Source: Asanoa ferruginea (lineage in GTDB: Bacteria > Actinomycetota > Actinomycetes > Mycobacteriales > Micromonosporaceae). Taken from it: a stretch of 64,000 nt of DNA. Under the pieces are notes generated by a model. The model worked only from the letters and a program-made list of their open reading frames with translations. It did not search any database and was not told where the DNA came from. The stretch lies in the NCBI RefSeq assembly GCF_003387075.1, contig NZ_QUMQ01000001.1:1054001-1118000 (forward strand). The letters run 5' to 3'. This document shows, piece after piece, positions 42,855 to 43,715 of this stretch; within the stretch, counting starts at the first letter, position 1; every line of letters starts with the position of its first letter. The position numbers and the translations under genes were made by a program.

Positions 42855-42884
42855 TTGCTCGGCACCTCGCTGCGTGGATAGCGT
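42855..42884 (+). promoter_or_regulatory. promoter candidate for the leader region
   Basis: TTGCTC (42855-42860) and TAGCGT (42879-42884) with an 18-base spacer. Start of transcription is expected near 42891, leaving a short 5' end before the Shine-Dalgarno of the small ORF. The preceding stretch 42721-42854 shows nothing else. Confidence 0.45.
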
Positions 42885-42890
42885 GGCCAT

Positions 42891-43083
42891 ACACGGGAAA
42901 GGAGGTGGTCCAGCTTTGTATAGCACTGGGACTCGTGAGGTGGCTGCCCGCTAGCCGCTGTCCTTGACAGTTTCCGATCGTCGAGACCGTGTGGCAGCGG
43001 TGCGGCGAAACCGAAGCAGCCACCCGGCCCCCGAGGTTCCGGCCCAGTCCAGCCGGTCCGTGCAAGCACGGAAGCCTCGGGGG
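42891..43083 (+). ncRNA. structured leader RNA candidate
   Basis: Plus-strand fold seen by eye: P1 42939-42947/43016-43024 (9 bp) encloses P2 42955-42960/42995-43000 and a small CGG-CCG hairpin at 43003-43013. Then P3 43028-43036/43075-43083 (9 bp) encloses P3a 43039-43043/43052-43056 and P3b 43058-43062/43067-43071 (CAAG loop). The 3' strand of P1 contains CCACC, which could alternatively pair with the Shine-Dalgarno GGTGG. An acetyltransferase gene starts 107 bp downstream. No known Rfam family comes to mind. Confidence 0.55.
42916..42954 (+). CDS. 12-codon leader ORF with near-perfect Shine-Dalgarno
   Basis: AAAGGAGGTGG (42898-42908) is almost fully complementary to the 16S 3' end and lies ten bases before TTG 42916. 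The ORF reads (M)YSTGTREVAAR and ends at TAG 42954. Its last codons form one strand of stem P1 of the predicted leader fold. It is too short to be a normal product and looks like a regulatory leader peptide. I do not recognise the peptide as a characterised leader. Confidence 0.6.
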   Translation: MYSTGTREVAAR

Positions 43084-43190
43084 TCGCTGCTATTCCGGGG
43101 CATAATCACGAAGATCTAACGTGATCCGTACGTACGACCAACTTCGATCCGATCAGTCAATCGGCTGACAGCCGTTCTGGAGCCATTTCC

Positions 43191-43715
43191 GTGACGCTCT
43201 CACTACGACCCGCAGTTGCCGATGACATCGAGGCCATTGGTCGCCTCCATTACGACTCGCGCATTGCCGCCTACCGCGATTTCGTGCCGATGGCCGGGCT
43301 GAGCGCCCTCTCGCCGGAGTCGCTCAGTGCCTGGTGGCGGGAACGGTTCGCCTACGAGGCCGACACCCATCGGCTGACCGTCGCCGTCGACGACGGGGCG
43401 GCGGTGGGCTTCAGCTACGTCGGTCCCGAGGAGGAGTTCACCCCTTCGACGGGCCAGCTCTACGCGATCCACCTCGACCCGGCGGCGCAGGGCCGGGGCA
43501 TCGGCCGGGCGCTGATGCGCGACGCGCTCGCCACGATGAGCGGCAGGGGCTGGCGCCAGGCGGTGCTCTGGGTGCTCGACGGCAACGCGCACGCCCGGCG
43601 CTTCTACGAGCGGGGCGGCTGGCTTCCCGATGGCCGGGAGCGCGAGGAACTCATGGGTGCGGCGCCCACCCGCCAGCTGCGCTATTCGCGAAGCTGGCTG
43701 GGCGAGAGTGCGTGA
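43191..43715 (+). CDS. GNAT family N-acetyltransferase
   Basis: 174-residue GNAT protein. Acetyl-CoA loop LDPAAQGRGIGRALMRDAL (canonical Q-x-x-G-x-G) near residue 100 and a C-terminal NAHARRFYERGGWLPDGR motif. Similar to amino-group acetyltransferases acting on small molecules or rRNA-acting antibiotics, but no substrate can be assigned. GTG start with GGAG about nine bases upstream. A structured leader with a short ORF precedes it, which raises the possibility of inducible expression. Confidence 0.92.
   Translation: MTLSLRPAVADDIEAIGRLHYDSRIAAYRDFVPMAGLSALSPESLSAWWRERFAYEADTHRLTVAVDDGAAVGFSYVGPEEEFTPSTGQLYAIHLDPAAQGRGIGRALMRDALATMSGRGWRQAVLWVLDGNAHARRFYERGGWLPDGREREELMGAAPTRQLRYSRSWLGESA

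Follow-up and report, generated by a model that had tools for sequence, protein, structure and literature searches.

The locus described here lies on the forward strand of a 64,000-nt window of the Asanoa ferruginea genome (contig NZ_QUMQ01000001.1), and all coordinates refer to that window. A promoter-like pair of motifs is followed by an extended Shine-Dalgarno (SD) sequence, a 12-codon open reading frame (ORF), a series of helices and the gene of a GNAT acetyltransferase (43191..43715, +; PF00583, 3.5e-15). All of the parts that a first-pass annotation had named, when it proposed a leader RNA for this gene, were found where it had placed them, with the GNAT start at 43191, 104 nt after helix P3. 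The annotation did not recognize the RNA family, whereas a search of Rfam returned a known one: positions 42891..43092 (+) match RF02471, the small RNA Ms_IGR-5, along the full length of the covariance model (1-184 of 184), with 104.1 bits (gathering threshold, 45 bits) and an E-value of 2.3e-22. Ms_IGR-5 was reportedly first described in an M. smegmatis sRNA study, and Rfam files it as an sRNA, the ORF being absent from the name and type of the family. The RNA is thus already catalogued, and its ORF and pseudoknot anatomy were not found described: in the portions of the literature available to name searches, Ms_IGR-5 appears only in catalogue mentions, expression data and one remark on footprints, and the same portions, restricted to main texts, hold no description of the short ORF or of the pseudoknot.

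The covariance search found one copy in the genome of A. ferruginea and matches in all six of the six genomes of its genus, in 106 of 121 genomes of its taxonomic family (103 over the cut-off) and in 249 of the 394 genomes sampled from the class (247 over the cut-off). In the phylum sample, 57 of 296 genomes have a match, and only 26 of these exceed the cut-off, so that the deeper matches are weak ones; the 14 control genomes yielded none. The RNA is intergenic, belongs to Actinobacteria and is usually present in a single copy; of the genomes listed, just G366, G612, G715 and G734 have two matches.

The promoter consists of TTGCTC (42855-42860) and TAGCGT (42879-42884), separated by an 18-nt spacer (42855..42884, +). 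A simple promoter and terminator scan of the window flagged neither element, and the promoter call therefore rests on conservation: of 224 distinct upstream sequences, a count that excludes L093 and L113, 209 have a TANNNT that ends 15-18 nt upstream of GGAGGTG, and 176 have in addition a TTG at a spacer of 16-19 nt. Fifty letter shuffles gave a mean of 11.4 (maximum, 18) for TANNNT and 0.5 (maximum, 2) for the pair. Judging by where this promoter lies and where the Rfam model starts, the RNA probably has its 5' end at or adjoining ACAC (42890-42891). Some 10 nt from the inferred end lies the SD, GAAAGGAGGTGGTCCAGC (42897..42914, +), complementary to the 3' end of the genome's own 16S rRNA; the near-perfect match claimed for it holds, as 17-18 contiguous pairs are possible, one of them G-U, with the last pair depending on the mature 16S end. 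Thirteen letters of this SD, AAGGAGGTGRTCC, occur five times in 9.07 Mb: once at this locus, twice as the antisense of a 16S 3' end and twice elsewhere.

We fetched 143 loci from the genus, family, class and phylum searches, of which 135 fit an anchor pattern made of the SD core and a GAGGTG-like motif; because the anchors include both elements, the conservation of both is partly selected for. The pattern missed eight loci, among them L005, yet the ORF is visible there. The 135 loci represent 120 distinct sequences, including L093, a match at a wrong place, and L113, which is without the usual 3' part. From 112 less-similar sequences, 76 were placed in alignment A3 and 23, from outside the class, in alignment A4, and 13 were omitted by eye (L017, L058, L065, L071, L073, L074, L090, L092, L075, L089, L097, L102 and L143). 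A further set, drawn from named records with a search pattern that specified neither start nor stop, comprises at least 120 stretches, 113 of them distinct, and may have species in common with the fetched loci.

The ORF (42916..42954, +) begins with TTG, ends with TAG and encodes LYSTGTREVAAR, with the first residue read as fMet. We required an NTG codon 5-12 nt after the SD core, a frame open to GAG and a stop no more than six codons from GAG. The predicted frame has both start and stop in 104 of the 120 distinct sequences, compared to 4 and 1 for the other two frames, which excludes alternatives such as VRWLPAS...; in the named-record set, among the matches listed, the corresponding counts are 112 of 113, 0 and 0, the exception being L259. 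The 12-codon ORF of the earlier description is therefore real as a conserved frame. Its stop codon occupies an identical position, at a fixed distance from GAGGTG and within the 5' strand of helix P2, in 117 of 120 sequences (TAG 104, TGA 11, TAA 2); it is lost in L074. The distance from start to GAG in the 105 sequences with an NTG start is 21 nt (91 sequences), 24 nt (5) or 27 nt (9), and that from the SD to GAG falls in all three phases (58, 33 and 29 of 120). Fifteen of the 120 sequences have no NTG: on reading, 12 show an in-frame CTG, ATT or ATC, L022 and L113 show none, and L093 is the wrong match. The short ORF is conserved, and from this pattern we infer that it is translated.

It should be added that CTG, ATT and ATC rarely serve as start codons; the loci where the ORF apparently starts with one of them are L024, L025, L030, L047, L099, L100, L103, L105, L107, L110, L111 and L143. 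Another peculiarity is the use of TAG in 104 of 117 fetched sequences and in 107 of 113 named ones (among the matches listed) despite the GC-rich genomes, in which TGA is usually the predominant stop; dependence on release factor 1 or pairing within P2 could account for this preference.

In the class of 12-codon ORFs (n = 91), codons 2-4 differ freely from one sequence to the next. Codon 5 has the form NGG, in which each of the four bases occurs at the first position (R, W, G). ACN is found at codon 6 in 89 sequences, and residue 7 is mostly R or C, from CGT or TGT in 82. GAG GTG fills codons 8 and 9 in 91 of 91, synonymous sites included, although the search anchor itself contained GAGGTG. 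All 91 have GCN or ACN at codon 10, 90 have GYN at codon 11, and 89 have NGC (R, S, G) at codon 12. Codon pairs separated by one step, as raw counts, are synonymous in 33 and non-synonymous in 109 cases for codons 2-4, versus 17 and 24 for codons 5-12. It is mostly RNA letters that are kept while residues vary, a pattern more indicative of an RNA that needs to be translated than of a peptide that needs to be preserved. GAGGTG (42937..42942, +) is in addition an internal SD-like hexamer, with 6 nt between its end and the last sense codon.

None of 200 dinucleotide shuffles folds as well as the transcript (z = -3.46), in agreement with the claim of a structured RNA. Helix P1 joins GGTGGCTGC (42939..42947, +) to GCAGCCACC (43016..43024, +), and the last codons of the ORF do form one of its strands, so that translation would have to open the fold. 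P1 is paired in 99.0% of the alignment cells, with a two-sided change in one of nine pairs (columns 61-186; CG 45, UG 17, UA 10, AU 1). Outside the class, GGTGRCTGC/GCAGYCACC becomes, by eye, about GGTGNCCGG/CCGGNNCACC in most loci; a simple search for the 3' strand hit other places in some loci. P2 is 88.4% paired in its outer part but poorly supported in its inner part (52.0%). P3 pairs CGGCCCCCGAG (43025..43035, +) with CTCGGGGGTCG (43076..43086, +), after which the window has no T-run; 96.4% of its cells are paired. P3 encloses the hairpin P3a (CCGG...CCGG; 43039..43056, +), 81.9% paired, and the hairpin P3b (CCGTGC...GCACGG; 43058..43071, +). Compensatory changes, proposed earlier as a check, are found in 9 of 11 pairs of P3 and in 4 of 4 pairs of P3a as well as in the single pair of P1, whereas P3b differs between lineages. 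Taken together with the pseudoknot described below, P1, P2, P3 and P3a comprise 36 pairs on the 76-sequence alignment, and 90.1% of their cells are paired; two-sided changes occur in 21 of 36 pairs (shuffled, 13.8), the covariation score is 0.221 (shuffled, 0.129), and all five measures gave 0 of 500 shuffles, with controls that do not preserve the relatedness among the sequences.

The pseudoknot is absent from both the first-pass and the Rfam structures. It connects GGACT in codons 5-6 of the ORF (42929..42933, +) with AGTCC in the loop of P3a (43046..43050, +), or, in general form, GGACN with NGUCC. The four pairs GGAC:GUCC are formed in 100% of sequences (n = 76), with one two-sided change (GGAU/AUCC in L067), and covariation is seen at the fifth pair, between the third base of codon 6 and the base preceding GUCC. 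This pair is Watson-Crick in 50 of 76 sequences, compared to a shuffled mean of 24.4 and a maximum of 39 over 2000 shuffles, which likewise disregard relatedness. The named sequences, among the matches listed, gave 51 of 103 (shuffled, 30.3; maximum, 49), where the reduction from 113 to 103 reflects four sequences cut at a contig end and six without GUCC at the place examined. Pairs further outward show no excess: 2 of 76 at +2 (shuffled, 6.6), 26 of 75 at -1 (23.8) and 16 of 75 at -2 (18.8). Across both alignments, the ORF forms with its own loop a helix of 5.18 Watson-Crick pairs on average, compared to 4.45 with exchanged loops (0 of 300), by a longest-helix measure that is not fixed to the GGAC:GUCC register and for which another helix is the longest in L001, L021 and L114. 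GGACC/GGUCC and GGGACC/GGUCCC are common outside the class.

Several competing pairings involve the SD. The alternative in which it pairs with CCACC of the P1 3' strand, suggested in the first-pass annotation, can form (99.2% of cells paired), but no pair has a two-sided change, and it concerns the SD of the ORF itself, not the GNAT start. A hairpin of the SD with GGAC (also written SD:GUCC) is 98.7% paired, again without covariation. The structure line of RF02471, as we read it, shares with the window the 5' start from ACAC to the SD and the terminal P3, but pairs the SD with GCUGCC and contains neither P1 nor the pseudoknot; this first helix is 50% paired as entered, one column out of register, and 93.9% paired when slid by one column, with no covariation. 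The pairings of the SD with GCUGCC, GGAC and CCACC are possible transient folds.

The surrounding genes bear on the proposal of an acetyltransferase leader, i.e., a cis-acting element in which translation of the short ORF would govern read-through into, or translation of, the following gene (here, GNAT). A GNAT leader as a general rule is not supported by the neighbors: according to a crude script that calls genes from GC by codon position, the nearest downstream gene is on the same strand in 44 cases and on the opposite strand in 57 (n = 101), and the downstream genes represent 82 Pfam families, the commonest with 11 of 101 and none of the 25 commonest a GNAT family; upstream genes represent 58 families (the commonest with 16 of 103). 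U-tailed terminators follow the RNA at 12 of 118 loci, and ten of these are among the 23 aligned loci outside the class, with the stem starting 173-207 nt after the SD core; the remaining two, with short stems, are in L125 and L129 of the window's family. Locally, the proposal fares better. In the window's family, 21 of 32 loci, including all six of the genus, have a close GNAT homolog on the same strand and inside the 1.5 kb fetched, versus 0 of 103 loci outside the family; among the matches listed, such a homolog is found at 9 of 120 named-record loci, often behind RNase Z. RNase Z comes first after the RNA at 9 of 32 family loci and at 12 of 120 named loci (among the matches listed). It starts ~14-66 nt after P3 in the nine family loci, and GNAT starts ~23 nt after P3 in L139 and also in L122, L124, L126 and L131, one clade, the P3 finder having misplaced P3 in the latter four. 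At such short distances from P3, a further promoter would not fit outside the RNA, and the RNase Z or GNAT genes that follow so closely in the window's family are likely reached by a read-through transcript. Same-strand ORFs start no more than 60 nt after P3 at about half of the 32 family loci and, by a crude ORF caller applied where P3 was found, at 23 of 86 loci outside the family. An RNase Z-GNAT unit could be under local cis control in this family. As an account of the RNA itself, the cis-acting leader is nevertheless unlikely, given the mixed strands and many families across the phylum and the terminators outside the class; moreover, the regulator of one gene would hardly hold an identical fold while its partners change.

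A conventional trans-acting sRNA, pairing through its C-rich 3' half and merely stabilized by the ORF, is to our mind even less likely than a leader. The RNA is indeed free-standing and structured, contains the C-rich stretch CACCCGGCCCCCG and has the Rfam type sRNA, but such an sRNA has no need of a conserved start, frame and stop, and the C-rich stretch is already paired in P1 and P3. Least probable, in our estimate, is a mini-mRNA whose product is a peptide of 12-14 residues and whose fold is mere tuning. The conserved start, stop and frame agree with it, as do Glu-Val in 91 of 91 ORFs and the Ala/Thr and mostly Ala/Val that follow; since the GA of codon 8 sits in no helix, Glu-Val could still be kept for the sake of the peptide. 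Conversely, codons 2-4 are free, and residues 5 (R/W/G), 7 (mostly R/C) and 12 (mostly R/S/G) vary because what is kept are the RNA letters NGG, YGT and NGC, as is also reflected in the synonymous and non-synonymous counts given above. The product is probably something other than the peptide itself.

The explanation that we favor, with moderate confidence, is a free-standing, translated, pseudoknotted small RNA that is remodeled by ribosomes. The promoter, the variety of neighboring genes and the terminators point to a free-standing gene, and the conservation of the ORF frame inside a conserved RNA knot suggests that ribosomes probably control the RNA; the SD is conserved jointly with the frame, the stop, the pseudoknot and P1, and the ORF has 12-14 codons. 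During elongation, a ribosome unwinds RNA helices and occupies some 12-15 nt in front of its A site. A ribosome that initiates at the near-full-length SD would melt the pseudoknot when reading codons 5-6, and P1 when reaching the stop codon. It may then pause there, as the 6 nt between GAGGTG and the last sense codon is a spacing that allows contact with the anti-SD; this step is pure conjecture. Depending on ribosome occupancy, the RNA would be a closed knot or adopt an open form with GCAGYCACC exposed. In most genomes, one of the two forms would act in trans, whether through base pairing to its own SD or to other SDs, through a protein or through stability. In the window's family, the RNA would perhaps also act in cis on the closely following genes.

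A bolder version of this model, which we put forward only tentatively and consider doubtful, is a phylum-wide ribosome sensor, in which the full-length SD would capture a ribosome that unpicks the pseudoknot and parks at a stop codon, held by the internal SD. If so, the active form of the RNA would report the capacity of the cell for initiation and termination, and not the state of the gene behind it. The function is open to direct test by single mutants of the start codon, the stop codon and the pseudoknot.

Some features of this RNA are familiar from known systems. In the translation-attenuation leaders of erm and cat, translation of a short leader ORF opens a stem; similarly, the RNA in the window has a conserved short ORF near its 5' end, and its translation would open a stem. 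Unlike these leaders, it has no downstream gene conserved across the phylum and no recognized resistance gene, and Ms_IGR-5 has a promoter of its own and, outside the class, often its own terminator. The GNAT protein scores far below every NCBIfam cut-off, the resistance acetyltransferase models included, and the likeness to leaders of antibiotic-resistance genes drawn in the first-pass annotation is therefore unsupported. The dual-function sRNAs SgrS and RNAIII are, like Ms_IGR-5, free-standing RNAs with an ORF; by contrast, the peptide of Ms_IGR-5 is apparently not conserved as residues, and its codons build the pseudoknot and P1. The frameshift site of prfB has an internal SD about 3 nt before the last sense codon. 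The window ORF likewise has an SD-like hexamer shortly upstream of its stop codon, but at 6 nt from the last sense codon, and no frameshift product is suggested.

Published data are compatible with such an RNA. For M. abscessus and M. smegmatis, ribosome footprints were reported on the Ms_IGR-5 homolog by authors who caution that footprints are seen on many non-coding RNAs (PMC4974804); the footprints in these two mycobacteria fit translation, though they are not specific to it. Other reports include RNA-seq support for Ms_IGR-5 in S. lividans (PMC8079986), an sRNA transcription unit mapped in S. avermitilis (PMC8780764) and an overlap with an sRNA from the cold-stress transcriptome of M. smegmatis (PMC10454040). 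The conserved start, frame and stop, together with codons that lie in a pseudoknot, recast a catalogued sRNA as a ribosome-dependent RNA, which occurs in mycobacteria, in streptomycetes (PMC8079986) and at loci outside the class.

Several minor observations should also be recorded. At all nine family loci where RNase Z comes first, GNAT follows it (L010, L084, L125, L127, L128, L132, L134, L136 and L138), while in the window's genus GNAT stands behind the RNA without RNase Z. All six genomes of the genus conserve the block at 43137-43196, before the GNAT start, which contains CGGCTGACAGCCG and is possibly a regulatory site of GNAT itself. A mobile element was considered and rejected, as blastn of 42860-43100 against plasmids and phages gave no match. 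Fourteen matches of viral contigs to a similar motif pattern were judged to be due to chance, because none of the 14 has both a start and a stop, a result that also shows the chance level. Genus g333 of the window's family has no Ms_IGR-5 match in 7 of 7 listed genomes (G678, G714, G733, G748, G761, G769 and G777), a possible lineage loss. Among the named records listed, L175 is on a contig labeled candidate division Zixibacteria, which is more likely a mis-binned actinobacterial contig than a case of transfer, and the element closest to that of the window, 83% identical, is from Catenuloplanes japonicus. Two adjoining matches, which could be one split match or a tandem copy, are found in two genomes of one genus (G715:C1:2364646-2364966 and G734:C1:5740579-5740894).
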